From: Microbacterium sp. Leaf320
GTDB lineage: Bacteria; Actinomycetota; Actinomycetes; Actinomycetales; Microbacteriaceae
Assembly (NCBI RefSeq): GCF_001423485.1
Contig: NZ_LMOD01000002.1
Location: 26,539-90,538, forward strand
Reading direction: 5' to 3'
Length of the DNA stretch: 64,000 nt
Shown here piece by piece: positions 600-55,698 of this stretch. The position numbers and the translations under genes are program-made. The notes below the pieces were generated by a model. The model worked only from the letters and a program-made list of their open reading frames with translations. It was not told where the DNA came from and did not search any database. Position 1 is the stretch's first letter; each line of letters opens with the position of its first letter.

Positions 600-748
600 A
601 CCCGTCAGTCAACCGGCAACCACCGACATTCAAGACCCGAAACCACACCGAATTACCCCAGATCAGAGTCGTATTCCAATCTCCCAGAATGACGCAGATC
701 CGTCCACTGAGAGGGCACATAGGGTGGCGGCGCTGAGGCGGCCCCGGA

Positions 749-915
749 AGAGATGAACAATCCCCGGAGAGGCAAACCCCAGGAGAGAAGAACAGCCCCC
801 GGAGGCAAGCCCCCGGAGAGAAGAACAACCCTCGAGAGGCAAGCCCCCGGAGAGAAGAACAACCCCCGAGAGGCGCCCTCAGAAGAGAAGAACAAGCCCC
901 AGGGAGGCGAACCCC
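749..915. repeat. Degenerate purine-rich tandem repeat (~33 bp unit)
   Basis: About five imperfect copies of a unit containing GGAGAGAAGAACAACCCC and GAGGCAAGCCCC lie head to tail. The + strand is strongly purine-rich. Both strands have short open frames here, but none has a ribosome site or a recognisable product. The rest of the 431-bp gap (600-748 and 916-979) shows nothing I can name. Confidence 0.6.
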
Positions 916-979
916 AGGAAAGCCGAGAGCGCGAGACAGACAACAGCGAGAGGACAACAGCCCCTCCCCGAACGCAGCG

Positions 980-1006
980 GTGGCCCCGCTCGAAGAACGG
1001 GGCCAC
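980..1006 (-). terminator. Stem-loop terminator after alcohol dehydrogenase
   Basis: A perfect 9-bp stem (GTGGCCCCG / CGGGGCCAC, 980-988 and 998-1006) encloses a 9-base loop, 24 bases beyond the stop codon of the minus-strand dehydrogenase gene. No long T-run follows, as is common in high-GC Actinobacteria. Confidence 0.65.
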
Positions 1007-1030
1007 CTCTTTCACACAACCGCGGCGATG

Positions 1031-2077
1031 TCAGTCCGCGATGGTCTTGGCGTCGATGACGAAGCGGTAGCGCACGTCCGAGGCGAGAACGCGCTCGTAC
1101 GCCTCGTTGATCTGCGAAGCCGTGATGACCTCGATCTCCGATGCGATGCCGTGCTCGGCGCAGAAATCGAGCATCTCCTGCGTCTCGCGGATGCCGCCGA
1201 TGTTCGATCCGGCGAGCGAGCGGCGTCCGCCGATCAGCGAGGAGACATTGACGGCGAGCGGCTCGGCCGGCGCACCGACGCAGACCATCGACCCGCCCAC
1301 GTCGAGGAGGCCGAGGTAGGCGCGCAGGTCGACCACTGCGCTGACCGTATTGAGGATCACGTCGAACGACCCGCGCAGCGAGCGGAAGGTCTCGGGGTCG
1401 CTGGTCGCGAAGTAGTGGTCGGCGCCGAGGCGGATCCCGTCGTCCTTCTTGTTGAGGGTCTGCGACAGCACGGTCACCTCGGCTCCGAGAGCATTCGCGA
1501 TCTGGACGCCCATATGGCCCAGTCCCCCGAGCCCGACGACGGCGACGCGGGTGCCGGGTCCGACATTCCAATGCCGCAGCGGCGAGTACGTGGTGATGCC
1601 GGCGCAGAGCAGAGGCGCGGCGACATCGAGGGCGAGAGCATCGGGGATGCGCACGGCGAACGACTCGGTCACGACGACCTGCTCGGAGTAGCCGCCCTGG
1701 GTGATGGTGCCGTCGCGGTCGGTGCTTCCGTAGGTGAAGACAGCACCGTTCGAGCAGAACTGCTCGTCTCCGCGCAGGCAGTTGCGACATTCACCACAGG
1801 AGTTCACGAGACATCCGACGCCGACGCGGTCGCCGACCGCGTGCTTCGTGACCTCGGAGCCGACGGCGGCCACGATTCCGGCGATCTCGTGCCCTGGTGC
1901 GAGCGGATAGCTCTGCGGGCCCCAGTCGCCGCGCACCGTGTGGATGTCGGAGTGGCAGATCCCCGCGAACGCGATGTCGATCAGGATGTCGTTCGCACCG
2001 AGCTCTCGGCGCTCGATCACGGTCTTCTCGAGCGGCGCGGCTTCGCTCGGTGCGGCGTAGGCGTGGACACGGGTCAT
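1031..2077 (-). CDS. Zinc-dependent NAD(P) alcohol dehydrogenase
   Basis: A 348-residue medium-chain dehydrogenase/reductase. The catalytic zinc motif CHSD and GHEIAGIV lie in the N-terminal third, the four-cysteine structural zinc lobe reads C..C..C.......C ([14 protein letters not shown]), and the nucleotide-binding GLGGLG follows. This is the cinnamyl-alcohol-dehydrogenase/YahK-like subgroup, which reduces aldehydes to alcohols, usually with NADPH. The start at 2075-2077 is chosen because GAGGAG lies eight bases upstream; the frame stays open further upstream without a ribosome site. The substrate cannot be read from the sequence. The gene is divergent from the next membrane protein gene. 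Confidence 0.88.
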
Positions 2078-2189
2078 CGAAGACTCCTCGGGTCGGTTCG
2101 GGTGGGGCAGATCGACACTACGGGGTGAACCTGTGTCGTTCCGGCACTCGGATCGGTAGCGTGGGGCTACGACTCCGGAGGGAAGTCCT

Positions 2190-3272
2190 ATGCGCCGATC
2201 ATCTTTGACCGCCCGCCTGATCACGATTCTGATCGCTCTCATACTGACGCCGATCGCCCTGATACTGCTGTCCGTCGGCGGACAGACGGTGAACCTCACG
2301 CTCCTCGCCTATGGATTCGACGGCTACCTGGCGCCCCTGGTCGGGTCGTTGCTTCTTCAGGCTCTCGGTCTCGCGCTGCTCATCCTGGTCGTGCTCACCG
2401 GCATCTGGAGTTCCGCCGGCCTGATCGTCGTCGGCATCTCCAGCATCGTTCCCCTGATCGTCGCGGTGTTCCCCGTGACGCTGTCGTGGATCATCCGGAT
2501 CCTGCCACGGGACTGGGGCGACGGACTCGTCTATGGAGTGCCTCTCGTCGTGCTCGCGCCCCTCGGGGCGATGGGATTGGTGCTCGCTCTCGTCCGCCGA
2601 GACCCGCGACCGAGGGGCACCGCCCTGAGCGTGATCGGCATCGTCGCCGCGCCGCTGCTGCTGACCGCCGGCGCCTGGGCGCTCACCTGGGGCATCGCCG
2701 ACGGAGCGCTCTTCGCCCTGCAACGATTCGAGTTCGACCTCCGTCCCGGTGCGGCATCGGCGGTCTTCGCCGGCGTACTGCTCGTGATCGCGGGCATCGC
2801 CGTGACGAGGTGGTCTCCCTTCGCGCTCGTGCTTCCGGCACTCGCGCTGCTGGTCGCCAGCATTCTGCTGATCGCCGCTCCCGAGACCGCGTTCCCGCTG
2901 CTGTTCGAGCTGCCGCGCGGACTGAACACCGTGGTTCCGACCCTGCTCCTCTACGGCGGCGGGGCAGCGGCTGGGCTGCTGTATCTCGTGTTCACCGTCG
3001 TGCTGCTGCGCGTCCGAACCCAGCCGCGGCTCACTCCCGACGGTTCAGCGCACTCGGGAGACGCCTCGTCCGCACAGGCACAGTACTCGACGGGGCAGTA
3101 TGCGGACGTGCAGTATCCCGGCGCACAGTATCCCGGCGCACAGAACGCTCAGAACGCTCAGACGCAGTACCCGCCAGCGCAGTTCCCACCCACCGCGATG
3201 CAGCATCCGTACCCGCCGTCTCCCGGACAGCAGCCGCCTCCCGCACCGTACCCGCCTCAGCCCGGGCCCTGA
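2190..3272 (+). CDS. Multi-pass membrane protein with Pro/Gln-rich cytosolic tail
   Basis: A 360-residue protein whose first ~275 residues form about eight hydrophobic segments. The last ~80 residues are low-complexity and rich in Q, Y, P and A (repeats such as QYPGAQ). The start is supported by GGAGGGAAG seven bases upstream. I do not recognise a functional family. The layout resembles the many actinobacterial integral membrane proteins with disordered Pro-rich tails that may dock partner proteins, but no role can be assigned. Confidence 0.7.
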
Positions 3273-3285
3273 GCGCGCACCCAGA

Positions 3286-3350
3286 CAGACGACACCGGCA
3301 GACGACACGGGTACACGACACCGACAGACCACACCGACAGACGACACCGG
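3286..3350. repeat. Five 13-bp tandem repeats running into a terminator
   Basis: Five consecutive 13-bp units close to CAGACGACACCGG start at 3286, 3299, 3312, 3325 and 3338. The last unit forms part of the left arm of the following terminator stem, so the array looks like local duplication of a terminator arm. Confidence 0.6.
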
Positions 3351-3380
3351 CCGGGATCCCACGATCCCGGCCGGTGTCGT
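3341..3380. terminator. Bidirectional terminator between convergent genes
   Basis: A perfect 18-bp stem (3341-3358 and 3363-3380) with a 4-base loop (CCAC) sits between the convergent membrane protein and acyl-CoA oxidase genes, and can serve both. Confidence 0.85.
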
Positions 3381-3399
3381 CGCAGTCGCGAACTCCGCG

Positions 3400-5469
3400 T
3401 CAGCGCTTGGCGTTCTTCTTCAGCACCTTCTCGAGCACCGGAGCCTCTCCGGATGCAGCGAGCGCCGCGTAGTACTCGCGCGCTTCGTCCTGACGCTCGC
3501 GCTCGGCACCGGAGGCGATGGGTGCGCGCACGTGCTCCGGCTCGTAACCGAACGCGTCGACGAGATCGAGCGCGTACGGGCGGAGCCGCGTGCACAGCCG
3601 ATCGATGTACCGCGACACCGCTGCGGCGCGCTGCGTCGACAGGCGCCCGTTGATGAGGTGCCACGCGAGGTGCTTCTCGATGAGCTGCAGTCCGAACAGG
3701 TCACGCAGCCAGGTGAGCACCTTCTTGGTATCGGCGTCCTCGACGCGGCGGACAGCATCGGTGAACGCCTCCCACTGCAGGAGTTCACCGTGCGCACGTG
3801 CCGCCTCGATCAGCTCGGCCTGGTTCTCGTTGAACAGCCGGGCACCGAGGACCTTGTCCTTGCCCGCCGGACGCAGTCGACCGGCGACGTCGGCGACCAT
3901 CTGCTGCACGCGCTCGGCGAGCAGTTGGTGCTGCTGCTCCTCACGCAGACCGTTCTCGACCGAACGCGCGACCTGCCCGAGGTCGACGACCGACTGACCG
4001 AACTGGCGCAGCCCCGCGCCGTGGAACACCTTGCCCGCGGTCATCCCGACGGCGAACTTCGCGAGCGCCGCAGCATCCTTGCCTGTGAACTGCTTGGCGT
4101 AGTCGGTGAGCAGACGCTTGCCGACGAGCTGCAGCAGAACGTTGTTGTCGCCCTCGAACGTGACGTAGATGTCGAGGTCGGCGCGGAGCCCGACGAGGCG
4201 GTTCTCGAACATGAATCCCGCCCCGCCGCAGGCCTCACGAGCCTCCTGCAGCGTGTCGAGCGCATGCCAGGTCGACAGCGGCTTGAGCGCCGCAGCCAGC
4301 GTCTCGAGGTCTTCGCGGTCGTCGGGGGTGTCGGTGCGACCCGAGAACACTCCGTCGAACTTCTGCAGGAACTCGTCGTGCGCGAAGATCTGCGCATACG
4401 TCGTCGCGAGGCGCGGGAACAGTCGGCGCTGGTGCTTGCCGTAGTCCAGCAGCACGACTTCCTGCCCGTCGGCTCCGTCGAACTGGCGACGCTGGGTGGC
4501 GTAGGTGATCGCGATCTTCAGACCGAGAGCGGATGCCCAGGAGGCAGCACCGTCGAGCGAGACGCGCCCCTGCACCAGCGTGCCGAGCATCGTGAAGAAG
4601 CGACGACCCGGGCTGTCGATCGCGCTCGAGTACGTGCCGTCGGCGGCCACGTCGCCGTACTTGTTCAGCAGGTTCGTGCGGGGGATGCGGATGTGGTCGA
4701 AGCTCAGGCGCCCGTTGTCGATTCCGTTGAGACCGCCCTTGAGTCCGTCGTCCTCCCGGCCGATGCCCGGCAGGTCGACTCCGTCTTCTCCGCGCAGCGG
4801 CACATAGAAGCAGTGCACGCCGTGGTTGACGCCGTTCGTGATGAGCTGCGCGAACACGGTCGCCGCGATCCCGTGCAGAGCCGCGTTGCCGAGGTATTCC
4901 TTCGTGGCGCCGCGGAACGGCGTGTTGATCACGAACTCCTCGGTCTCGGGGTCGTAGGTCGCGGTCGTGCCGACGGCGGCGACGTCGGATCCGTGTCCGA
5001 TCTCTGTCATCGCGAAGGCGCCGGGGATCGAGAGGTCCATGACACCGGGCAGCCACTTCTCGTGGTGCTCTGTGGTGCCGAGCTGCAGGATCGCGGAGCC
5101 GAAGAGCCCCCACTGCACGCCCGACTTGATCTGCAGGCTCGGGTCGGCGACGACCAGTTCCTCGAAGCCCGCGATGTTGCCGCCGTTGTTCTCCTCGCCG
5201 CCCAGCGACTTCGGGAACGCGCGATGCACAGCCTTGTTCTCGACGAGCAGGTGCAGCTGGCTGAGCACGCGCTCACGGTGCTCGTCCTTGCCCAGTTCGT
5301 CCTTACGCCAGAACGCCGAATCCTTGATCATCTCGCGCGCCTCGCGGCGGGTGTCGGCCCAGGTGCCCATCAGCAGATCGGTGACCCTGGCGACGTCGAA
5401 CGTCAGGTTCGCGTCTGCGTTGTCGGTGTGGGGGCGAGTCGTCTTCGGACGGACGGCGGCGTCGACCAT
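3400..5469 (-). CDS. Acyl-CoA oxidase / dehydrogenase-like flavoprotein
   Basis: A 689-residue protein with the acyl-CoA oxidase layout: N-terminal helical domain, the FAD/substrate loop (AFAMTEIGHGSDV, then TYDPETEEFVINTPFRGATKEYLGNAA), a middle beta domain, and two C-terminal helical domains (RRQFDG, EARESCGGAGF-like EAREACGGAGFMFENR). Its length suits acyl-CoA oxidases (~650-700) better than dehydrogenases (~380). It should catalyse the first oxidation step of fatty acyl-CoA degradation using FAD. Of two nearby ATGs, 5467-5469 is preferred because GAGAGG then lies seven bases upstream. It is monocistronic between terminators. Confidence 0.85.
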   Translation of the reverse strand: MVDAAVRPKTTRPHTDNADANLTFDVARVTDLLMGTWADTRREAREMIKDSAFWRKDELGKDEHRERVLSQLHLLVENKAVHRAFPKSLGGEENNGGNIAGFEELVVADPSLQIKSGVQWGLFGSAILQLGTTEHHEKWLPGVMDLSIPGAFAMTEIGHGSDVAAVGTTATYDPETEEFVINTPFRGATKEYLGNAALHGIAATVFAQLITNGVNHGVHCFYVPLRGEDGVDLPGIGREDDGLKGGLNGIDNGRLSFDHIRIPRTNLLNKYGDVAADGTYSSAIDSPGRRFFTMLGTLVQGRVSLDGAASWASALGLKIAITYATQRRQFDGADGQEVVLLDYGKHQRRLFPRLATTYAQIFAHDEFLQKFDGVFSGRTDTPDDREDLETLAAALKPLSTWHALDTLQEAREACGGAGFMFENRLVGLRADLDIYVTFEGDNNVLLQLVGKRLLTDYAKQFTGKDAAALAKFAVGMTAGKVFHGAGLRQFGQSVVDLGQVARSVENGLREEQQHQLLAERVQQMVADVAGRLRPAGKDKVLGARLFNENQAELIEAARAHGELLQWEAFTDAVRRVEDADTKKVLTWLRDLFGLQLIEKHLAWHLINGRLSTQRAAAVSRYIDRLCTRLRPYALDLVDAFGYEPEHVRAPIASGAERERQDEAREYYAALAASGEAPVLEKVLKKNAKR

Positions 5470-7744: not shown

Positions 7745-10700
7745 CTACTCCGCCTGGACCATCGGCCGGCGAGATCGTGCGATCCGCGTAGCCCCCAGTC
7801 CGAGCATCAGCAGCAGGGCCGCCAGAGCGATCCATCCGCCCTGGATCTCCCCGCCGGTGGTGGCGAGGCCCGAGGCCACGACCTGGAACGTGGCCGCAAC
7901 GCTGCCGGAGCTCACTCCGGTCAGGGTCACGGTGTGGGTTCCGAGATCGGTGCTGGACGGGACCGTCCAGGTGAAGGTGACCGTTCCCTGGGCGTTGGCG
8001 ACCTGGGTCCCCAGTGCGATCGGGGCGGAGGTCATCACACCGCTGACGGATTCACCCGGCGCGAACCCGGTGCCGACCGCGGTCTGCTGGGAGCCGCGCT
8101 CGAGAACCGGGACCTTGATCGCGATGGCGATCTTGCCGGTCGGATCGGCCGCTGCATCCGCAGAGGCCGAAGCCTCAGCCGTCGCCGAGGCCGAAGCCTC
8201 TGCGGCGGACTCAGCCGAGGCGTCAGCGGCAGCCGACGCGGAGGCCGTTGCGGACGACGAGGCGTTGGCCGCCGCGGCCGCCGACGCGTTCGGGTCGGCG
8301 TCGGCCGAAGCCGACGCGTCAGCCGCACTCGTCGAGGTCGCATCGGTCTGCGCCGCAGCCTGAGCCGCAACCGCCGCGGAGGCATTCGCATCCGTGGTGG
8401 CCGTGGTCGAGGCATCCGTAGAGGCGTCGTCGGTCGCCGCGGCCGAAGCCGCTGCATCCGCCGTCACGTCCGCAGCCGCCGAGGCGGTGCTCGTCGCATC
8501 GGCGAGTGCCGCAGCGACTGCCGCCGCCTCCACAGAGGCGTTGCTGTCGTCGTCGGCCTGAGCCGATGCCGACGCGGATGCCGAGGCGTTGGTGTTGACC
8601 TCAGCGGACGGGTCGGCCGCTGCCGATGCGTCCGCCGTGGCGACCGCATCGGAGGAGGCATCGGTCGAGGCGCTGGCGATCGCCGCCGCGCTCGCGTTCG
8701 ATGCCGCACTCGTGCTGGCGTCCGACGTCGCCGAGGCCTCGGCCGCGGTGTCCGTCGACGCGTCTGCCAGCGCCGCCGCCTGAGCCGCGATCGCCGCGCC
8801 GGCGTTCGCCTCGGAGGTGGCGTCCGCGGTGGCCGCGGTCGACGACGTCGCCGTCGCAGCCGACTCCGCCGCCGCTTCCGCTGACGGATCGGCCGCGGCC
8901 GAACCCTCAGCCGTGGCGTCGGCGAATGCCGCAGCCTGAGCCGCCGCCTCCGCGATCGCATCGGTCGAGGAGTCTGCATCGGCCGATGCGGATGCCGAAG
9001 CCGCCGCGTTCGTGTTGGCCGAAGCCTCGGAGGAGGCATCCGTCGACGAATCCGCCGTCGCCGCCGACTCCGACGATGCCGCCGAGTTCGAGTCCGCCGC
9101 CGTCGAGGCATCCGCGTTCACGTCGTCCGACGCATCCGCCTGAGCCGCCGCCTGTGCAGCCACCGCCGCAGAGGCGTTGGCCGTCGAGGTGACGTCGGTG
9201 GATGCGGTGGTCGATGCGTCCGACGTCGCCGCGGCCTCAGCCGCAGACGTCGCATCGGCCGTCGCCGCCGCGGAGGCGGTCGACGTCGCGTCGGAGAGAG
9301 CGGCGGCCTCTGCCGCGGCCTGAGCCGACGGGTCGCCATCTGCGGTCGCGTCAGCCGAGGCGGATGCCGAAGCAGCCGCGTTCGTGTTGACATCGCCCGG
9401 GTCGCCCGCGGTCACCTCTGTGGTGTCCGTGTCGCTGAACGCACCCGACGTGGCCGTGAGCGTGTAGCCCGTGCCCGGAACCGCATCGGCGGGAACCGGG
9501 TAGTTCGCCGTGAACGCACCGAACCCGTCGGTCGACGCGGTCACCGGACCGCCGACGTTCGCGCCACCACCCGGCGCCGTCAGCTGCAGCGACACTGTGG
9601 AGTTCACAGGCCAGCCCGTTCCGGTGACGCCCAGATTTGTGCCCGCGGGGACGGATGCGGCCGCGTCGACGACGACCGGAGCCGCCGTGACCTCGGTCGT
9701 GTCGGTCGCCGTCTGGGCGCCCATGCTCGCCGTCACGGTGTATCCCGTGCCAGCGGGGGTGCCGGCGGGCACCGGGTACTGCAGCGTGAAGCCGCCGAGC
9801 CCGCCCGTCGTCACCACCTGAGGAGTGCCGATCACCGCGCCCCCCGGAGCGGTCAGCTGCACTGTGACTTCGGTGTCGGCCGGCCAGTCGGTGCCCGAGA
9901 CCGCGAGGTTCGTGCCCGCTTCGACGGTCGCCGCCGCATCCACCGTCGCCGCAGCCGTGACCGCGGTCGTGTCGGTGGCCGTCTGAGTGCCCACGCTCGC
10001 CGTCACGGTGTACCCCGTGCCGGGTGCCGCCGAGGCGGGAACCGGGTAGTCCAGCGTGAAGCCGCCCGTCCCGTCCGTCGTCACCGTCTCAGGCCCTCCG
10101 ACGTTCGCGCCGCCACCGGGTGCGGTCAGCTGCACCGTCACCTCGGTGTTCGCCGGCCAGCCGGTGCCCGTGACAGGAAGGCTGGTGCCCGCCTGCACGG
10201 TGTCTGCGGCATCCACAGCGGCTGCAGCCGTCACCTCGGTCGTGTCGGTCGCCGTCTGCGTGCCCACGGTCGCGGTGACCGTGTAGCCCGTGCCGGGAGC
10301 CGCCGAGGCCGGTACCGGGTAGTTCAGCGTGAAGCCACCGGTGCCATCCGTCGTCACCGTCTCAGGACCGCCGACGTTCGCGCCGCCACCGGGCGCGGTC
10401 AACTGCACCGAGACCTGGGTGTTCGCCGGCCAGTTCGAGCCCGTGACAGGAAGGCTCGTGCCCGCTTGCACGGTGGCTGCGGCATCCACTGCCGCAGCGG
10501 CCGTCACCTCGGTCGTGTCGATCGCCGTCACCGCACCTGCGGTCGCCGTCACCGTGTACGCGGTGCCCGGAGCCGCCGAAGCGGGAACCGGGTAGCTCAA
10601 CGTGAAGCCACCGGTGCCATCCGTCGTCACCGTCTCAGGACCGCCGACGTTCGCGCCGCCACCTGGCGCGGTCAACTGCACCGAGACCAGGGTGTTCGCG

Positions 10701-12970
10701 GGCCAGTTCGTGCCGGAGACCGCGAGGTTCGTGCCGGCCTGCACCGTCGCCGCCGCGTCGATCGACGCGACCGGAGCGGCCGTCACCTCGGTCGTGTCGG
10801 TCGCCGTCTGCGTGCCCACGGTCGCGGTGACCGTGTAGCCCACAGCGGCAGGGGTCCCTGCCGGCACCGGGTAGTCGAGCGTGAACGAGCCGGCTCCGTC
10901 GGTCGTGACGAGCTCGGGGCCGCCGATGTTCGCGCCGCCGCCGGGAGCCGCGAGCTGCACCGAGACCTGCGTGTTCGCGGGCCAGTTCGTGCCGGAGACG
11001 CCGAGGTCGGTGCCCGCCTGCACAGCGGGTGCCGCGTCGATCGTCGCCGCAGCGGTGACCTCGGTGGTGTCGGTCGCGGTGCTCGTGCCGTCGGTCGCCG
11101 TGACGATGTAGCCGGCGCCCGGCGCCGTGGCAGCGGGGATGAACACGCTGCCGGTGAAGGCACCGGACGCATCCGTCGTCACGGTCACTGGGTCATTGAC
11201 GATACCGCCGCCAGCGGTCGTCACCTCCACCTCGACATCGGTGTTCGCAGGCCATCCCGAGCCTGTCACGGGAAGGTTCGTGCCCGCCTGCACGGTGTCA
11301 GCCGCGTCGATCGCAGCGACAGCGGCCGCAGCCGCCTTCACCGTGGATGAGGCGAGGTCGAGCTCGACCCCGCCGCCGACGGCCGGGAGAAGATCGATGC
11401 CGAGCGCACGCACGGTGAAGCTGTCACCGGGGATGTCACCGGGTTCGGACTGCTCGTTGATCGTGATGGTCGCCACCCCGGACAGCACGCCCTGGAGAAC
11501 CGGGTCGAGTGTCGAGAGCAGAGGACCGGTCAGCGCGGCGAGCGCCGGCTGCACGAGCGGGATGACGCTGTTCAGCGCGGTGTCCACCAACGGCCCCGTC
11601 GTCGTGGCGACGGCCGTCGTGACGGCGCTCACCACCGGGTTGAGCAGCACGCCGATGTTGAGCCCGGCGAGCGTGATGTCGGTGGTCACTGCCGGAGCCG
11701 GAGCCGCCGTGCCCGCGAACTGCGCGAGGGTTCCGGCGACCGTGACGTCACCTGAGACGAGGTCGATTCCGGTGAGCGGGTTGGTGAGGTCCACCCCGAC
11801 CGTCAGCGTGACCGCCAGCGAGTCCAGCGTCGAGGCGAGGATCGTGGAGACCTTGCCGTTGAGGCTGTTCGGGTGCGTCCCGGTGAGCGCCGTGGTGATG
11901 CCCTGCTGGATGGCCGCGATCGTCGTCGCGGACAGCACCGGCGTGTTCGCCGGGAGCGAGTTGAGGTCCGCACCGGCTCCCGTCTCGACGAGGATCTGCG
12001 CGAGGTCGACCGAGATCGTCCCGTCGCTCAGGTCCACGAGGACCGATCCGGTGGTGTTCTCGACGGGTTCCGTCAGCAGTTCGGCCACGACCGTGTCGCC
12101 GACCGTGTCGATGCCGTCGATCGCGACGGTGCCACCGGTGGCCTCGAAGGCCGCGACCAGCGGGACGTCGGGGATCGCGTTGATCGTGTTCACCAGAGTC
12201 GTGACGAGCCCCGTGAGCGCTCCGCCGGGGCCGGCGAGGTCGCTGACAGGCGTCACAGTGCCCTGGATGGTCGAACCCAGAGTCGTCGCGAGGCCGGCGA
12301 CCAGGTTGCTGTGCAGGTCGAGGTTCAGATCCGCGATGCGGTACTCCGACGCGACCGTTCCGGCCGTCGACTCGGCGCGCGAGGCGAGTGCTCCGATGCC
12401 GACGGATGCCTCATCGAGGACAGCGTCGGTGAGGCCGGCGACCGCGAGCTGGTCGAAGAGATCCGTGAGTTCGAGGGTCGCAGGGTTCGTGCTGCCGTCG
12501 ATGGCGCCGGTGTCGATCGCGCCACCCGAGGTGATGACACCCGATGAGGCGATGGACTGCGTCTGCAGGGGCGAGGAGCTGAAGCTCTGCGCCGCACCCA
12601 GATCGCCGAGCTGCAGGAGACCGGGTGTGGTGCCGTCGGTCAGCAGCGCGATGTTCAGTGTCCCGACATCGATGTTGAGCGCTTCGAGCAGACCGACGTC
12701 CAGCCCTCCGAGCTCAGACCCCGGGGCGGCGGGGTTGCTGGTGATCGTGTGACCGAGCGCTGCGATGTCCAGGCCGCCGAGCAGATCGGCGGGCAGCTGG
12801 ATGATCTGGCCCTGCGCCACCGACGGATCGGTGGGCTCCGCCGCATCCAATGCATTCGCCGCTGTGGGCACCAACGCGCTCGCGAGGATCACAGCCCCGG
12901 CGGTTGCGCCGGCGATCCCCCCTCCGATGGCTCTGCGTCGCCGCAGAGTCTTCCCCCTCAGAAATTCCAT
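7745..12970 (-). CDS. Large cell-wall-anchored surface protein (choice-of-anchor G-like) with Ig-like and Ala/Ser/Asp repeats
   Basis: A 1741-residue secreted protein. Residues 1-40 form a signal peptide (RRRR, hydrophobic core, ANA cleavage). Residues ~41-545 resemble the choice-of-anchor G head region of actinobacterial surface proteins. Seven Ig-like repeats of ~91 residues follow (each with VQAGT, GWPANT and TATDTTEVTA). Next is a stalk of ~415 residues made almost only of Ala, Ser, Asp and Thr, then one more beta domain. The C terminus has LATTG at ~1700, a membrane helix and RSRR, a class E sortase (LAXTG)-type signal. GGGAGAGG precedes the ATG. The gene has its own terminator. The binding target is unknown; a stalked adhesin is the likely role. 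Confidence 0.88.
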   Translation of the reverse strand: MEFLRGKTLRRRRAIGGGIAGATAGAVILASALVPTAANALDAAEPTDPSVAQGQIIQLPADLLGGLDIAALGHTITSNPAAPGSELGGLDVGLLEALNIDVGTLNIALLTDGTTPGLLQLGDLGAAQSFSSSPLQTQSIASSGVITSGGAIDTGAIDGSTNPATLELTDLFDQLAVAGLTDAVLDEASVGIGALASRAESTAGTVASEYRIADLNLDLHSNLVAGLATTLGSTIQGTVTPVSDLAGPGGALTGLVTTLVNTINAIPDVPLVAAFEATGGTVAIDGIDTVGDTVVAELLTEPVENTTGSVLVDLSDGTISVDLAQILVETGAGADLNSLPANTPVLSATTIAAIQQGITTALTGTHPNSLNGKVSTILASTLDSLAVTLTVGVDLTNPLTGIDLVSGDVTVAGTLAQFAGTAAPAPAVTTDITLAGLNIGVLLNPVVSAVTTAVATTTGPLVDTALNSVIPLVQPALAALTGPLLSTLDPVLQGVLSGVATITINEQSEPGDIPGDSFTVRALGIDLLPAVGGGVELDLASSTVKAAAAAVAAIDAADTVQAGTNLPVTGSGWPANTDVEVEVTTAGGGIVNDPVTVTTDASGAFTGSVFIPAATAPGAGYIVTATDGTSTATDTTEVTAAATIDAAPAVQAGTDLGVSGTNWPANTQVSVQLAAPGGGANIGGPELVTTDGAGSFTLDYPVPAGTPAAVGYTVTATVGTQTATDTTEVTAAPVASIDAAATVQAGTNLAVSGTNWPANTLVSVQLTAPGGGANVGGPETVTTDGTGGFTLSYPVPASAAPGTAYTVTATAGAVTAIDTTEVTAAAAVDAAATVQAGTSLPVTGSNWPANTQVSVQLTAPGGGANVGGPETVTTDGTGGFTLNYPVPASAAPGTGYTVTATVGTQTATDTTEVTAAAAVDAADTVQAGTSLPVTGTGWPANTEVTVQLTAPGGGANVGGPETVTTDGTGGFTLDYPVPASAAPGTGYTVTASVGTQTATDTTAVTAAATVDAAATVEAGTNLAVSGTDWPADTEVTVQLTAPGGAVIGTPQVVTTGGLGGFTLQYPVPAGTPAGTGYTVTASMGAQTATDTTEVTAAPVVVDAAASVPAGTNLGVTGTGWPVNSTVSLQLTAPGGGANVGGPVTASTDGFGAFTANYPVPADAVPGTGYTLTATSGAFSDTDTTEVTAGDPGDVNTNAAASASASADATADGDPSAQAAAEAAALSDATSTASAAATADATSAAEAAATSDASTTASTDVTSTANASAAVAAQAAAQADASDDVNADASTAADSNSAASSESAATADSSTDASSEASANTNAAASASASADADSSTDAIAEAAAQAAAFADATAEGSAAADPSAEAAAESAATATSSTAATADATSEANAGAAIAAQAAALADASTDTAAEASATSDASTSAASNASAAAIASASTDASSDAVATADASAAADPSAEVNTNASASASASAQADDDSNASVEAAAVAAALADATSTASAAADVTADAAASAAATDDASTDASTTATTDANASAAVAAQAAAQTDATSTSAADASASADADPNASAAAAANASSSATASASAAADASAESAAEASASATAEASASADAAADPTGKIAIAIKVPVLERGSQQTAVGTGFAPGESVSGVMTSAPIALGTQVANAQGTVTFTWTVPSSTDLGTHTVTLTGVSSGSVAATFQVVASGLATTGGEIQGGWIALAALLLMLGLGATRIARSRRPMVQAE
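8140..9395. repeat. Ala/Ser/Asp-coding long repeat region (three ~130-residue units)
   Basis: Three diverged copies of a ~400-bp block each begin with codons for NTNA/S-ASASASA and share AAVAAQAAA-like segments. They encode the stalk of the surface protein and produce very long spurious open frames on the other strand. Confidence 0.7.
9396..11330. repeat. Seven ~275-bp Ig-like domain repeats
   Basis: Tandem copies encode ~91-residue domains. Copies three to five are nearly identical over long stretches (GGGANVGGPETVTTDGTGGF recurs), implying recent duplication or gene conversion. Confidence 0.85.
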
Positions 12971-51350: not shown

Positions 51351-51510
51351 CGTTTCGTCTCGTCGCTGCGCTCCTCGCTCAACGACCGGGGAGGGCCCGG
51401 TCGTTGAGCGAGCGGAGCGACTGCCCGTCGTTGAGCGAGCGGAGCGACTGCCCGTCGTTGAGCGAGCGGAGCGACTGCCGGTCGTTGAGCGAGCGGAGCG
51501 AGACGAAACG
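51351..51510. repeat. Palindromic repeat, copy 3, with four 27-bp tandem units
   Basis: An inverted arm (CGTTTCGTCTCGTCGCTGCG from 51351, ending in CTCAACGACC) faces four 27-bp copies starting at 51400, 51427, 51454 and 51481, each with GTCGTTGAGCGAGCGGAGCG. The last ends in AGACGAAACG. Confidence 0.85.
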
Positions 51511-51523
51511 CCGAGGGAAGCGG

Positions 51524-52312
51524 CTACAGGTTGCCGTCCGCGTAGATGCGGAGCGCGTCGCGGACGAACTCGGCACCGTGCGTGCCGCCGGCCGACGTCG
51601 CGTAGTTCGCGCCGAAGCGCGGATCGGCGACATACATATCGCCGAGCCCGAGCACGTGCGCCTTGACGGCGCCGCCGGGTACGGCCGCGGGGGTTCCCGG
51701 GATGCCGGTCAGCCACTCGACGTGGCGACGGGCGACGTCCTGAGCCTCAGCTGATGCCGGGTCGATGCCACCCTCTGCGGCGGCGATCCAGTCCCGACCG
51801 AGGTCGGAGACACGCTGCTTCCACTCCGAGCGCTCGGCGTCGGTCATCCCGCGCCACCAGCGGTCGCTGTCGGCGTAGGCCTTGCGACCCCAACGCTGCT
51901 CGACCTCCTCCCGATACCGGGTGTGGTCGAAACCGTCGAACATGTTCTCTGCCATGAGTTCTTCACCTCCTCTCAATGCGTCGATGGTGCTCTCGACCGA
52001 CGCGATCTGTCGCGCCAGCCGGTTCTGCTCCTCGCGCAGCAGAGCGAGGTGCGTCTCGAGAGCGGACTCCTCGCTCTGCCGCGCGTTCGTCGGGTTCAGC
52101 ACCTCGGCGATCTGCGGCAGCCCGAGTCCCAGCTCGCGCAGCAGCAGGATGCGCTGCAGCCGCACGAGGGCGGACTCGTCGTAGTGGCGATAGCCGTTGC
52201 GCGCGATGCGTGACGGGCGCAGCAGTCCGACGTCGTCGTAATGGCGCAGTGTCCTGCTGGTTGTGCCCGCGAGTCGGGCGATCTCTTGGATCGACCAATC
52301 ACGACCGGTCAT
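51524..52312 (-). CDS. TipAL-like MerR-family regulator
   Basis: A 262-residue protein. The N-terminal MerR DNA-binding domain is WSIQEIARLAGTTSRTLRHYDDVGLLRPSRIARNGYRHYD, followed by a dimerising coiled coil (~75-112) and a TipAS-type antibiotic/peptide-binding domain (EVEQRWGRKAYADSDRWWRGMT onward). TipAS domains capture thiopeptides and related molecules. Its own promoter has the elongated 19-bp spacer with an inverted repeat expected for MerR control. It is divergent from the small peptide gene at 52479, which it may also regulate. Confidence 0.9.
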   Translation of the reverse strand: MTGRDWSIQEIARLAGTTSRTLRHYDDVGLLRPSRIARNGYRHYDESALVRLQRILLLRELGLGLPQIAEVLNPTNARQSEESALETHLALLREEQNRLARQIASVESTIDALRGGEELMAENMFDGFDHTRYREEVEQRWGRKAYADSDRWWRGMTDAERSEWKQRVSDLGRDWIAAAEGGIDPASAEAQDVARRHVEWLTGIPGTPAAVPGGAVKAHVLGLGDMYVADPRFGANYATSAGGTHGAEFVRDALRIYADGNL

Positions 52313-52351
52313 CGCGTCCTCCTTCCGTCAGCTCGGTCCGTCGATGACTCC

Positions 52352-52382
52352 AGCGTAGAAGTTGACGTAGCGTCAATGTCAA
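52352..52382 (-). promoter_or_regulatory. MerR-type promoter with 19-bp spacer
   Basis: On the minus strand TTGACA (52377-52382) and TACGCT (52352-52357) are 19 bases apart. The spacer contains the perfect inverted repeat TTGACGCTACGTCAA (52362-52376). Overlong spacers with a central dyad are the hallmark of promoters activated by DNA distortion by MerR proteins. Confidence 0.75.
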
Positions 52383-52478
52383 CCATTTGTGAATGTCGGC
52401 ATTCTGCACTCATATGACTAGCTTTAGTAGCCATCGGGTGACAGCCTCACCTTGTCACGAATAGATGGAGGTAGTTAT

Positions 52479-52721
52479 ATGTCCCTGATGGCGATGATCG
52501 AGCCGACGCTGATGAAGCGTCGCGCTCAGGATGCACTCGACGACGCGATCCTGCGGCTCGATGCCTGGTGGCTGGTGCTGATCGCAGCGATCCTCGTGTT
52601 CGGTGTCGCGTTCCTCGCGGCACTGGCGCTGTGGTGCTTCTTCAAGGCGGGCGGCAGGCGCTTCACCGGCAACTGGCAGTGGGGCAAGAGCGGCGTCTCC
52701 GTGTGGGTCGAATGCGTCTAA
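52479..52721 (+). CDS. Small single-span membrane peptide, candidate peptide precursor
   Basis: An 80-residue protein. An amphipathic N-terminal helix with many charges (MKRRAQDALDDAILRLDAWW) is followed by one strong membrane span (~36-61, ending WCFF), then KAGG and a short aromatic/polar C terminus (RRFTGNWQWGKSGVSVWVEC plus V). It has a well-placed GGAGG eight bases before the ATG at 52479. The palindrome after its stop, the ABC genes and the membrane peptidase downstream suggest a secreted or membrane-acting peptide. GNWQWG-x-SGVS loosely recalls the start of lactococcin 972-type peptides, but this is not enough for an assignment. Confidence 0.65.
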   Translation: MSLMAMIEPTLMKRRAQDALDDAILRLDAWWLVLIAAILVFGVAFLAALALWCFFKAGGRRFTGNWQWGKSGVSVWVECV

Positions 52722-52731
52722 GCCCACGTCG

Positions 52732-52761
52732 CGCCCGGACATCGACGTCGATGTCCGGGCG
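52732..52761 (+). terminator. Perfect 30-bp palindrome after the peptide gene (terminator or attenuator)
   Basis: Fifteen bases (52732-52746) are exactly complementary to the next fifteen, starting ten bases after the peptide gene stop codon and followed by TCTCGTT. Recognisable ATPase coding sequence begins immediately at its right edge. Confidence 0.75.
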
Positions 52762-52802
52762 TCTCGTTCGCGTACTCGAAACGTGCTCCGGCACTGCGCG
52801 AT

Positions 52803-53459
52803 GTGTCCTTCGTCGTGGAACGAGGCGAGAAGGTCGGCCTGGTCGGACCGAACGGATCGGGAAAGTCGACGCTCATCCGACTCGCGTCCGACCTGCTTCA
52901 GCTCACGCACGGGAGCATCCGCATCGCCGGTCGTTCTCATCAGGTCCGTGAATCGCGCGAGCGACTGGCGTTCATCGCCAGCAACGACTACCTCCCGCAG
53001 TTCCTGACAGGTCGCGAGTACGTCGATCTGATGCACCGGCTGTACCGACACAGCCCGGACGCCTCGCAGACCGACGAGCTCTTCGCCAGGTACCAGATGG
53101 AGGGACGCCAGTTCGACCTCATCGAGGACTACTCGCACGGCATGCGCAAGAAGATCCAGCTCATCTCGACGCTTCTCCTCGAGCGCCCTCTCACGATCAT
53201 CGACGAGACGCTCAACGGCGTCGACGTCGATGCGCTGTTCGAATTCGAGACCGACGCATCCCGATTCGGAGAGTCGCGAGGGCTGCTGCTGTGCAGCCAT
53301 GACTTCCGGCTCCTCGAGGCGGTCTGCGATCGCATCATCGTGCTGTGTGGCGGCGAGATCGCGTTCGACCTGCCGCTCTCCCGCATCCTTCACGAGTTCG
53401 GCTCAGTCGACGCCCTGGTCAAGCGCGCGATAACCCAGCGGTCGAGGGCGCGCGAATGA
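52803..53459 (+). CDS. ABC transporter ATP-binding protein with altered 5' end
   Basis: A 218-residue ATPase from GTG 52803: Walker A GPNGSGKST, signature-like YSHGMRKK, Walker B LTIIDETLNGVD and H-loop LLCSHD. This is the BcrA/ABC-2 exporter type. The same frame continues upstream of the GTG as VSFAYSKRAPALRD, the normal first strand and A-loop of such ATPases, back to about 52758. It contains no start codon there and meets the peptide-gene TAA at 52719-52721. Either translation starts late without the A-loop, or a frameshift or fusion damaged the 5' end. ATGA overlap links it to the permease. Confidence 0.75.
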   Translation: MSFVVERGEKVGLVGPNGSGKSTLIRLASDLLQLTHGSIRIAGRSHQVRESRERLAFIASNDYLPQFLTGREYVDLMHRLYRHSPDASQTDELFARYQMEGRQFDLIEDYSHGMRKKIQLISTLLLERPLTIIDETLNGVDVDALFEFETDASRFGESRGLLLCSHDFRLLEAVCDRIIVLCGGEIAFDLPLSRILHEFGSVDALVKRAITQRSRARE

Positions 53460-54877
53460 ACCCGTCTCTGCAGCTCGCATCGTTCCTCTCGGTGTTCCTG
53501 ATCCGGCGCATCGCCCGCCGCGGCGTGCTGCGGAGGCCGTCCGTCCGCTGGACGATCGGGCTGGCAGCCCTCGCCGCATTCATCGGGTTCTGCGGATTCG
53601 GGGTGATCGCGCTGCGTCAGCTCATCAGCGAACCCGAGCAGCTGTCACCCCTCCTGCGCGTCGTCGGGGTGTCCACTCCGCTGTGGGTCCTGACGGTGTT
53701 CACCGTCGTGCGAGTGCTGTTCCTGAAGTCCGGCGACCTGCTCGAGCTCACCTTCTCATTCCCCCTGACCAACAGGGCGCGAACACTCGGGTTCATGCTG
53801 TTCGAGACCCTGGTCGTGGGCATCGGCGCCACCGTCATGCTCGGAGCGCTGGTCACCGGGACCGTCGCGATCGGCGGCGTCGGCATCCTCGACGAGGTCA
53901 CCACCTGCCTGGTCATGCCCCTGGTCATCGCCTACCTGGCGGCGAGCGCCTACTACCTCGGCATGGAGCGACTGCTGCTGCGCCTCCGTCTCGCACGGCT
54001 GCGCGCCTTCCTCGTGCCGGTGGTCCTGGCCGCGACTCTGGTGGCCGTCTACCTCGGCGTGTCCTCGCAGTCGGAGCGCGTGCTCTTCGCGGCGATCGGC
54101 CAGGGCGACGACCACTTCGCGATCCCGCTGCTGTTCGCCGACATCGCCGCGCAGCACGGGATGATCGTCACGACGCTCGCCTGGCTCGCCACGATCGCGC
54201 TCCTGGTCGCAGTCGTCCTCGCGATGGCCCCTCGGCAGTTCGATCCGACTCGACGCTTCGCGATCGTCCCCCGCCTCTTCGGCGGCTCGGAGTTCGGCTC
54301 GTACTTCGCCGCACACATCCGAGGCATCGAGACGATCACGGTCTGCGGCATCTCCCTGGCCGGCTCCTACGCGCTCTTCCTCGCCGACATCCGGCTCCCC
54401 CCGCTCCTGCTGCTGGCCGTCACCGTGCAGTCGGTCTATGCCTTCGTCTCGACGGAGCCGCTGCGCGCGTGCGGGCCCCGCCGCCATGGCCCGACCCGAC
54501 GATACGTCCTGGTGCTCGCACCCCAGCTCGCCACTCTCGCGATCATCGCCGTGCCGATCAGCGCACTGTCGGCCCTGACGGGTTCGCAGGCCGCGGAGAT
54601 CATCTCCGTCGTCGGCTTCGCGGTGTCGAACATCGTCGTGCTCACGCTGGCGGGAATCGCGTTCCCGCCGGAGAAGGGCAACCCGTTCTCGGTGATCGCC
54701 GGGGCGGCTGTCGCAGGACTCGTGACCGGGACGATCATGCTCGGCACGAACCTCCTGGGCCTGCCCGCACTGTTCACGATCGGAGTGATGCTCATCCTCA
54801 CTCTCGTCGCCGCCGCTCTCTCCATCACCGGGATGGACAGGATAGAAAGGACCGCTCGTCATGAAGTGGTTGTTTAG
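53456..54877 (+). CDS. ABC-2-type permease
   Basis: A 473-residue membrane protein with about twelve helices in two halves. A central cytosolic region (APRQFDPTRRFAIVPRLFGGSEFGSYFAAHIRG) separates them. The ATG overlaps the ATPase stop codon (ATGA), so the two form one exporter or immunity transporter. The exact family is not recognised; size and partner fit multi-span permeases of peptide or bacteriocin transport clusters. Confidence 0.75.
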   Translation: MNPSLQLASFLSVFLIRRIARRGVLRRPSVRWTIGLAALAAFIGFCGFGVIALRQLISEPEQLSPLLRVVGVSTPLWVLTVFTVVRVLFLKSGDLLELTFSFPLTNRARTLGFMLFETLVVGIGATVMLGALVTGTVAIGGVGILDEVTTCLVMPLVIAYLAASAYYLGMERLLLRLRLARLRAFLVPVVLAATLVAVYLGVSSQSERVLFAAIGQGDDHFAIPLLFADIAAQHGMIVTTLAWLATIALLVAVVLAMAPRQFDPTRRFAIVPRLFGGSEFGSYFAAHIRGIETITVCGISLAGSYALFLADIRLPPLLLLAVTVQSVYAFVSTEPLRACGPRRHGPTRRYVLVLAPQLATLAIIAVPISALSALTGSQAAEIISVVGFAVSNIVVLTLAGIAFPPEKGNPFSVIAGAAVAGLVTGTIMLGTNLLGLPALFTIGVMLILTLVAAALSITGMDRIERTARHEVVV

Positions 54878-55175
54878 GGTCGCCGTCAGCGCGGTCGGAG
54901 CTCTCGTCCTCACCGCAGGATCCGCGGTGGCCACCGCGATCTGGCTGATGTTCGCGGGAGGTTCCACCGAGGGTCGCCGCCTCGGATTCTTCGATTCGGT
55001 CTTCGTCGAGGTCCGTCAGAGCGCCGACGGAGCGACCCAGCTCGGCACGGGGATCAACGACCCCCTCCCCCTGGTTCTCGCAGTCGTCGTCGCCACCGTC
55101 TTCATCCTCGCCGTGTTCGCGGTGCACGACAGTCTTCTCGAGCGGCGGAGGCACCTCCTCGCGCAGGCGGAATGA
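54861..55175 (+). CDS. Small two-span membrane protein
   Basis: A 104-residue protein with an N-terminal span (VAVSAVGALVLTAGSAVATAIWLMF), an extracytoplasmic loop of ~40 residues and a second span (LVLAVVVATVFILAVF), then a basic tail (ERRRHLL). GAAAGGACC precedes the ATG, which lies 17 bases inside the permease gene. No family recognised; position suggests an accessory or immunity subunit. Confidence 0.65.
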   Translation: MKWLFRVAVSAVGALVLTAGSAVATAIWLMFAGGSTEGRRLGFFDSVFVEVRQSADGATQLGTGINDPLPLVLAVVVATVFILAVFAVHDSLLERRRHLLAQAE

Positions 55176-55176
55176 C

Positions 55177-55698
55177 GTGTGGTCGGTCCGCACCTCGCAC
55201 ATCGACGCGGGACTCGTGTGCCGCTGGCTGCTGCTCGCCGCCTGGCCGATGCACGCCGCTTTCGCCGCCCTGAGCGCGGTCGTCGTCTCTGTCGCCGTCA
55301 TCACGGAGCAGGAGGCGATCCTCAGCGCGGTGGCGACGCTCGGCGCGCACTACGTCGTCGGGCTCGGCGGATCGTTCGCCGTGCACGAGCTCGGACACCT
55401 CATCGTGCTCTCGCGAGCACGAGGGGTGACGGCGCTCACTCTCGAACGCTCGACCTGGCGGATCTCGATCGCACCCCACGGGCGGATCACGCGCCGCGAC
55501 GCCGCGCTCGCGGCACTGGCAGGCCCTGGAATGTGCGCCGTCGCCGGCGGCATTCTCTGGCTCGTCATCCCCGAGCTGCAGGTGCACGGGTGGTATCTGG
55601 CGCATGCGGTGTTCCTCATCCCGCTCTTCAACGACGGCCGGATCCTGCTCACCGCCATGCGGGCCCGGAGCGCCACCCCATCCCGCCGACAGGAGTGA
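55177..55698 (+). CDS. Membrane-embedded HELGH metallopeptidase-like protein (M50/S2P-like)
   Basis: A 173-residue integral membrane protein. FAVHELGHLIVLSRARGV holds an HExxH zinc motif at residues 70-74 inside a hydrophobic stretch. A later LIPLFNDGRILL (Asn-Asp near the C terminus) fits the third-ligand region of M50 intramembrane proteases. The domain is shorter than standard site-2 proteases. The GTG start lies one base after the preceding stop. Comparable M50-like proteins occur with ABC genes in peptide clusters such as Bacillus yydFGHIJ, so processing of the 80-residue peptide is a reasonable inference. Confidence 0.65.
   Translation: MWSVRTSHIDAGLVCRWLLLAAWPMHAAFAALSAVVVSVAVITEQEAILSAVATLGAHYVVGLGGSFAVHELGHLIVLSRARGVTALTLERSTWRISIAPHGRITRRDAALAALAGPGMCAVAGGILWLVIPELQVHGWYLAHAVFLIPLFNDGRILLTAMRARSATPSRRQE

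Follow-up and report, generated by a model that had tools for sequence, protein, structure and literature searches.

The DNA studied here, referred to as the window, is a stretch of 64,000 nucleotides (G000:C2:26539-90538) from the 3.87-Mb draft genome, in 9 contigs, of Microbacterium sp. Leaf320. Five closely packed genes on its plus strand very probably form, to judge from their sequences, a chromosomal cluster for the biosynthesis of a transmembrane-helix-containing bacteriocin (TMcin), with counterparts of tmcA, tmcB, tmcC, tmcE and tmcP. The tmcA-like precursor gene (52479..52721) has a GGAGG ribosome-binding site, encodes 80 amino acids and is followed by a stem-loop (52731..52762) that contains a perfect 30-bp palindrome (52732-52761). 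Beyond it come the reading frame of a tmcB-like ABC ATPase (52722..53459; Pfam ABC_tran, 8e-23), the normal N-terminus of which is lost, and the genes for a tmcC-like permease of 473 residues and about 11-12 spans, with homologues in full clusters (53456..54877), for a tmcE-like putative escort protein of 104 residues and two spans, with a homologue in the plasmid pHOB2 (54861..55175), and for a tmcP-like, putatively site-2-type metalloprotease of 173 residues bearing HELGH and P-x3-DG (55177..55698). A preliminary description of this DNA had listed the single-span peptide, the palindrome, the ATPase, the permease, the two-span protein and the HELGH protein on one strand, as well as a MerR/TipAS regulator, and all of these were located. 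The stop-start overlaps that it described from the ATPase onward hold for the ATPase/permease and permease/two-span junctions but not for the last, where one base separates the two-span from the HELGH gene.

The combination was not recognised in that description; it matches the published TMcins, which ties a puzzling cassette to an antimicrobial class described in 2025 (PMC12328743) and 2026 (PMC13252029, a preprint). TMcin-G1905 is a 5.8-kDa peptide of S. aureus in which two conserved Trp residues flank a transmembrane helix and a disulfide pins a two-stranded sheet; it kills bacteria, acts broadly and forms large pores, and homologues whose genes are arranged in three ways are reported from both Bacillota and Actinomycetota (PMC12328743). 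Its leader is removed N-terminal of the helix (PMC12328743; PMC13252029). According to the preprint, the 45-residue leader is removed by TmcP, a protease of site-2 type with the PDB match 3B4R, TmcE acts as an escort, TmcBC secretes the peptide and TmcD makes the disulfide, tmcD being said to be missing from non-staphylococcal clusters (PMC13252029). Neither of the main texts contains the words Microbacterium, hairpin or epidermidis, a result that does not extend to figures and supplements, and Microbacterium may already be in the authors' tree.

Conservation of the five-gene unit

A profile search found the peptide in 13 of 366 Microbacterium genomes, that of the window included, and the order peptide-ABC-permease-two-span-M50 is kept at all 13 loci. 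The relatives include Microbacterium sp. Leaf159, the peptide of which is 99% identical to that of the window, and K24, EST19A and SA39. The same order recurs at loci L046 and L047, which were added by a scan of genome contigs and come from Pseudarthrobacter siccitolerans and Pseudarthrobacter sulfonivorans, at L068 and L071, and at L090, a viral contig of IMG/VR with host unknown; none of these shares the Microbacterium surroundings (markers tested in all but L090), and the two-span genes of L047 and L068, missed by tblastn, were read by eye from lists of open reading frames. Because the five-gene order is thus kept in 18/18 loci inspected outside the Bacillota plasmids, the packing of the genes is not a matter of chance. 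The small gene, for which the preliminary description had proposed a check of co-occurrence, is indeed retained beside the ABC and M50 genes in relatives, and Microbacterium chromosomes would accordingly harbour the TMcin class as a unit of five genes.

In class-wide samples the permease was matched in 3 of 296 genomes, leading to G671, and the peptide in 4 of 394, leading to G730; each of these two genomes has the five genes in the usual sequence. A phylum-wide peptide search of 396 genomes found the window genome alone, so the family is sparse. Locus L043 was dropped as a duplicate of L041 and a partial M50 match in G024 was left unused. A plasmid search with the Microbacterium consensus peptide gave no match; the L090 peptide served as a bridge to Roseburia and Peribacillus plasmids, and from the peptide found in Roseburia the search led on to Staphylococcus epidermidis and Paraclostridium bifermentans. 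An origin in phage or defence systems was rejected, since no PADLOC or PHROG family was found below E 0.01, and phage searches with the L090 protease and the L093 peptide gave no match. By eye, genes adjoining the L090 cluster resemble transposases.

The precursor peptide

The peptide has a single hydrophobic segment (residues 32-50, by hydropathy), a helix bordered on either side by Trp (W30/W31 and W52) and two cysteines about 25 residues apart, Cys53 at the end of the helix and Cys79 at the C-terminus, so that the conserved flanking Trp residues and the placing of the cysteines are those of a TMcin. Alignment of 22 peptides reveals a variable N-terminus and conservation from about residue 26-30 through the helix to the end, with both cysteines present in 22/22; W30, A36, W52, C53, F62, G64 and C79 are invariant in a diverse set of 11, and the 22 sequences narrow down the invariant residues. 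The precursor is also the most constrained gene, the mean ratio of the proportions of non-synonymous and synonymous differences (pN/pS) being 0.29 against 0.35 for the ABC, 0.44 for the permease, 0.45 for the two-span and 0.60 for the M50 gene (Nei-Gojobori counting over 13 loci, or 12 for the permease, with the frameshifted L040 excluded). An AlphaFold2 model from seven sequences predicts a helix (8-56) and then two strands (62-69 and 72-79), as described for TMcin; the mean predicted local distance difference test score (pLDDT) is 71, with 72-77 in the strand block, and the overall predicted template modelling score is only 0.43. Searching the PDB by fold with this model yielded nothing below E 3, profile searches of PDB sequences gave no match below E 0.3, and the Pfam matches of the peptide lie below the curated cut-offs, NCBIfam giving nothing significant.

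A product released after the KAGG motif had been thought plausible. We reject this because the GG, present in 13/13 Microbacterium peptides, is found at that place in 0/9 of the other aligned peptides, and because conservation spans the helix as well; the G1905 leader, moreover, is cut N-terminal of the helix. The conserved GG cleavage site of the double-glycine class II bacteriocins is likewise not a feature of the family. By analogy with G1905, the leader would comprise residues 1-28 (52479-52562) and the mature peptide about residues 29-80 (52563-52718), since the cysteines of mature G1905 are C25 and C50 (PMC12328743, PMC13252029) and this spacing, with the first Cys at C25, places the mature start near A29. 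The resulting 52 residues have a predicted mass of 5800.8 Da in the oxidised form, with the disulfide, equal to the 5.8 kDa of TMcin-G1905; a mature start at residue 28 or 30 would give 5915.9 or 5729.8 Da. Glu49 of G1905, which takes part in a salt bridge in the pore as modelled by the TMcin authors, matches E78 of the window by position, a residue invariant in 18 peptides and replaced by Lys in that of pHOB2.

Exporter, two-span protein and protease

The ABC ATPase and the permease of about 12 spans correspond to TmcB and TmcC of the TMcin clusters. Simple hydropathy gives 11 peaks for the permease, which has no Pfam or NCBIfam family and no relative among PDB sequences at E 1. The two-span protein corresponds to TmcE by its spans, by alignment and by hhalign; it has no Pfam match and nothing significant in NCBIfam, and the sole match of its profile among PDB sequences is TMHC2_E (E 0.11), which we take to be a designed protein.

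The HELGH protein is, on the evidence of its motifs and profile, a site-2-type metalloprotease. Residues H70, E71, H74, G124, P149, D153 and G154 are invariant in 12/12 aligned proteins, the letters inside HExxH being variable, and the combination of HExxH with a distal Asp and Pro places it, like TmcP, in the site-2 clan. The sole PDB match of its profile at E 1 is 3b4r, the site-2 protease of M. jannaschii (5.3e-7) and the same match that the TMcin authors report for TmcP; its own Pfam matches lie below the curated cut-offs and NCBIfam gives nothing significant. For an AlphaFold2 model (pLDDT 85) the four best Foldseek matches are 3b4r, SpoIVFB, RseP and SpoIVFB again, a fold match that is modest when taken alone because no Foldseek match falls below E 0.001. 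The earlier reading of the genes as a cassette that processes and exports a peptide, with a protease of M50 type, is upheld, and the placing of the HELGH protein in the site-2 family disposes of the alternative that it belongs to a non-protease family.

Comparison with known TMcin clusters and proposed mechanism

With the cluster of S. aureus G1905 on pCT545 (tmcB, C, E, P, A plus tmcD) that of the window shares a single-helix precursor with flanking Trp, two Cys and a predicted beta-hairpin tail, an ABC pair, a two-span escort, a site-2-type HExxH protease and the same predicted mature mass. It differs in that the Microbacterium cluster is chromosomal, has a stem-loop after the precursor and, in the window, lacks the ATPase start; the leader is put at 28 residues in the window against 45 in G1905, there is one extra residue between the cysteines, and neither a DsbA gene nor a helix-turn-helix (HTH) regulatory pair was seen beside the window cluster. 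The absence of a DsbA gene (tmcD) among the five cluster neighbours scanned is not a defining difference, because tmcD is reported missing in non-staphylococcal clusters (PMC13252029); the window genome has four Thioredoxin_4 (DsbA-like) matches over the cut-off and one VKOR. Alignment by hhalign links the Microbacterium profiles to the proteins of pHOB2 (S. epidermidis 14.1.R1, NZ_CP018844.1, L094), with E values of 2.5e-11 for the peptide (P0001), 4.3e-6 for the protease and 1.2e-9 for the two-span protein (P0003). This plasmid has a homologous peptide, permease, two-span protein and protease and an annotated ABC ATPase, but its order is ABC-permease-two-span-protease-peptide, with the precursor gene last where it is first in Microbacterium, and it is a 9.3-kb mobilizable plasmid with an HTH gene pair.

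Several observations weigh against the assignment to this class. The homology to TMcin-G1905 is bridged via the pHOB2 peptide P0001 and not drawn from a direct comparison, the protease has only modest backing from Foldseek (3b4r as the best match, at E 6.5e-3), and the window protease has no match at E 1 to Pfam DUF3267 (PF11667), the family named for G1905 TmcP. Furthermore, with the ATPase start missing in the window and the permease frameshifted in L040 (G001), 2/13 clusters are broken or mis-assembled; the frameshift, of one base in a run of C near 8998, may be an error or decay. DUF3267 membership is reported by the TMcin authors for G1905 TmcP and is no criterion of the class; among related proteins it is matched by that of L092 (2.2e-5, below the cut-off) and by P0008 (3.7e-19).

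Gene content and order, homology, protease family, the conserved cysteines and the stem-loop are established for Microbacterium, and to these we add, by analogy, the cleavage, disulfide, export, escort and pore demonstrated for S. aureus TMcin-G1905 (PMC12328743, PMC13252029). In the scheme that we propose, the 80-residue precursor would insert in the membrane of the producer, the two-span escort and the site-2-type protease would remove the N-terminal leader near residue 28/29, and general oxidoreductases with genes elsewhere in the genome would form the disulfide between Cys53 and Cys79. The ABC transporter would then extract the 52-residue peptide from the membrane and release it, and the peptide would enter Gram-positive target membranes, its helices ringing a beta-barrel pore. 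Intact relatives, Leaf159 and others, are possible TMcin producers outside Staphylococcus.

The stem-loop after the precursor gene

At the RNA level the palindrome corresponds to a conserved stem-loop directly 3' of the peptide stop, with a 14-bp stem and a z-score of -3.8 in the window. Uninterrupted stems of at least 12 bp are present in 13/17 actinobacterial loci and 15/22 of all loci, and z is about -2 or lower (mononucleotide shuffles) in 20/22; folding gave no significant structure after the precursor gene in L090 and L095. Covariation was examined in the nine of 13 Microbacterium stem-loops that have a 4-nt loop, the four with other loop sizes being dropped: 117/117 cells are paired and two-sided changes occur in 8/13 pairs. 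When the 3' letters are reshuffled the paired fraction has a mean of 0.81 and a maximum of 0.88, and slid pairings give 0.33-0.44, although this last control favours the stems, since they were picked by folding. In the number of pairs changed on both sides the shuffles reach the same value (maximum 8, mean 4.8), so that only the paired fraction distinguishes the real stems. There is no T-run 3' of the stem-loop in the actinobacterial loci inspected. The stem-loop probably keeps the precursor mRNA above the exporter mRNA, and it may protect or terminate the precursor transcript.

The ATPase start in the window

The ABC frame of the window runs without interruption from the stop codon of the peptide gene, and its only start options are CTG 52794 and GTG 52803, the latter being the first ordinary start, inside the domain (218 aa). 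Both lie past the VSFAY strand, presumably the A-loop. The distance from peptide start to ABC stop is 978 nt in the window against 1025-1069 in the other 12 Microbacterium loci, and relative to the closest relative, L042, 47 nt are absent; the lesion is unique among the 13 loci and begins inside the 3' arm of the stem-loop. In L042 an ATG within this arm opens the ABC frame, and the same ATG is out of frame in the window. It is because of these missing 47 nt that the first ordinary start falls within the domain. The loss is either a true mutation or an assembly fault. With an ATPase that has no normal start the window copy may not export, and our confidence in the functionality of this copy is lower than that in its identity as a TMcin cluster.

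The neighbouring regulator and the upstream region

The MerR regulator with a TipAS-type domain does face the cassette, as had been described (51524..52312, minus strand; Pfam TipAS, 2e-28, with a MerR match), but its membership in the system, also suggested, is unsupported. The merR promoter (52352..52382, minus strand) has a 19-bp spacer with a palindromic operator (52362-52376), which therefore lies in merR's own promoter and faces away from the cassette. A merR search covered 38 genomes, in 18 of which the gene was found at E 1e-60 or better; 16 of these are without the cassette (no strong peptide match). The operator pattern TTGAC-N5-GTCAA is found in 16/16 of the cassette-free loci, the promoter pattern in 14/16, and the operator pattern in 11/12 cassette-bearing loci with merR, L045 being the exception. 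Because gene and operator occur equally without the cassette, merR is a resident neighbour, and a TipAL-like regulator as a partner of the system was rejected as not cassette-linked. It adjoins the cassette in 12/13 Microbacterium clusters, L062 having the cassette without merR, and it is likewise not beside the cassettes of L046, L047, L068 and L071. In 13/16 cassette-free loci the next marker past merR, about 0.2-0.9 kb off, is glgP (one locus) or a DUF4097 gene (12 loci), and the remaining three have no marker within the 1.5-kb flank. A glgP or DUF4097 gene directly past merR outlines the empty insertion site, and the cassette sits at a fixed Microbacterium site beside a resident regulator.

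Upstream of the peptide gene lies a pair of direct repeats resembling TATG(A/T)C, with a distance of 21 bp between them (52393..52418, plus strand), a possible promoter control site that is partly conserved when the upstream regions of the 13 Microbacterium loci are aligned, and the pattern has its only mismatch-free match in the window genome at this place. The spacing recalls what we take to be the paired sites of bacteriocin response regulators; no regulator of this type was seen beside the peptide gene. A separate set of repeats at 27-bp spacing, built on GTCGTTGAGCGAGCGGAGCGA, is found just downstream of merR at 51397-51528.

Alternative interpretations

The strong conservation of the peptide, the direct repeats upstream of its gene and the regulator adjoining most Microbacterium clusters would also suit a pheromone or cell-cell signal, along the lines of the preliminary description, that the M50 protease cuts out and to which the adjacent TipAL-like regulator responds. 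We consider this highly improbable, given the regulator and operator at every cassette-free locus, the orientation of that operator, the five clusters without the regulator beside them and the killing of bacteria by the staphylococcal member of the class (PMC12328743). An epipeptide-like or daptide-like pathway, of the kind known for ribosomally synthesised and post-translationally modified peptides, would entail enzymatic modification followed by leader removal by the M50 protease, and we find it barely credible here. The functional likeness to yydFGHIJ that the preliminary description drew is accepted, in that yydFGHIJ/epeXEPAB and daptide clusters pair a peptide and ABC genes with a membrane protease, of M50 type in the former (PMC7026026, PMC10036551); in daptides (Microbacterium paraoxydans mpa) an RRE-dependent intramembrane peptidase removes the leader (PMC10036551), and the L090 protease gives a weak NCBIfam match to the daptide HExxH model (E 0.035). 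However, the epipeptide locus encodes a radical SAM epimerase and yields a product of 17 residues (PMC7026026), and in daptides a C-terminal Thr is decarboxylated, transaminated and dimethylated (PMC10036551), whereas the precursor of the window ends in ECV, not Thr. No modifying enzyme is visible at the locus, as had been remarked: Pfam scans of the six cluster proteins and five neighbours revealed no family of radical SAM, aminotransferase, dehydrogenase or methyltransferase enzymes.

That the window cluster is a decaying remnant, no longer making a bacteriocin, is a real possibility that falls somewhat short of an even chance, and it is compatible with the TMcin interpretation for the relatives. 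The 47-nt deletion of the ATPase start, beginning in the 3' stem arm, speaks in its favour, but the other reading frames of the window are intact, their ratios of non-synonymous to synonymous substitution rates (dN/dS) against L042 ranging from 0.06 (peptide) to 0.42 (M50), and in a draft of nine contigs faulty assembly can produce an apparent deletion beside a perfect palindrome. The identification as a TMcin cluster, which we prefer, could be extended, in a manner that we regard as rather unlikely, to a view in which the actinobacterial chromosomal TMcins are a subclass of their own (precursor-first, with a dosage stem-loop and chromosomal oxidoreductases) with a fixed Microbacterium site between nitroreductase/merR and glgP/DUF4097, and in which the constraint on the peptide reflects a role beyond killing, so that an exporter-disabled strain would still profit, for example through immunity or a membrane-held precursor.

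Related clusters on plasmids

The search pointed to variants of the class: Paraclostridium has a fusion of RRE and protease, and a TMcin-type plasmid is carried by a strain of S. epidermidis with strong activity against Cutibacterium acnes, the cause of this activity being unproven in PMC5347227 and PMC4770681. Cluster content varies among the Bacillota: pHOB2 has the five genes reordered, Roseburia has peptide, two-span and M50 genes, and Peribacillus has peptide, ABC and large membrane protein genes. On the Roseburia sp. 831b plasmid L092 (5950-8621) the precursor, two-span and M50 genes are followed by one for a thioredoxin-domain protein with a sub-threshold DsbD_2 match, and the nearest annotated ABC ATPase gene is about 6 kb further, past an IS110 transposase. 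On the Peribacillus muralis plasmid L093 (5959-8672) a TMcin-like precursor gene that the annotation lacks accompanies an ABC gene and one for a large membrane protein, and no two-span or protease gene was seen adjoining these; its permease aligns at only 14% identity and may not be homologous.

In pHOB2 the TMcin-type cluster (728-3964) is the main cargo. Strain 14.1.R1 inhibits all tested P. acnes strains by a substance that was not purified, a type VII system being tentatively blamed (PMC5347227; PMC4770681), and we put forward as a hypothesis that the pHOB2 cluster causes this activity. Against such a link, the inhibition by 14.1.R1 is confined almost entirely to propionibacteria, whereas TMcin-G1905 has a broad action, and the active protein of 14.1.R1 is described in these sources as heat-labile.

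For Paraclostridium bifermentans, the plasmids L095 and L096 were examined and a third, H9, was left out, L096 being uncounted in the totals since its peptide is near-identical to that of L095. Both resemble the window in having a TMcin-like precursor gene first, an annotated ABC ATPase, a large membrane protein and a DUF3267 protease, but the L096 permease aligns at 12% only and may not be homologous, and the two-span assignment of P0006 is weak (16% identity). They differ in encoding, in addition, a fusion of PqqD/RRE with M50 (Pfam PqqD, 9.5e-13) and a thioredoxin of DsbA-like type, the latter unlike the statement on non-staphylococcal clusters in PMC13252029. In L096 the precursor, PqqD (RRE)-M50 fusion, DsbA-like thioredoxin and DUF3267 protease genes occupy 8512-10921, with a similar arrangement in L095, and these clusters possibly represent an RRE-guided variant of the TMcins.

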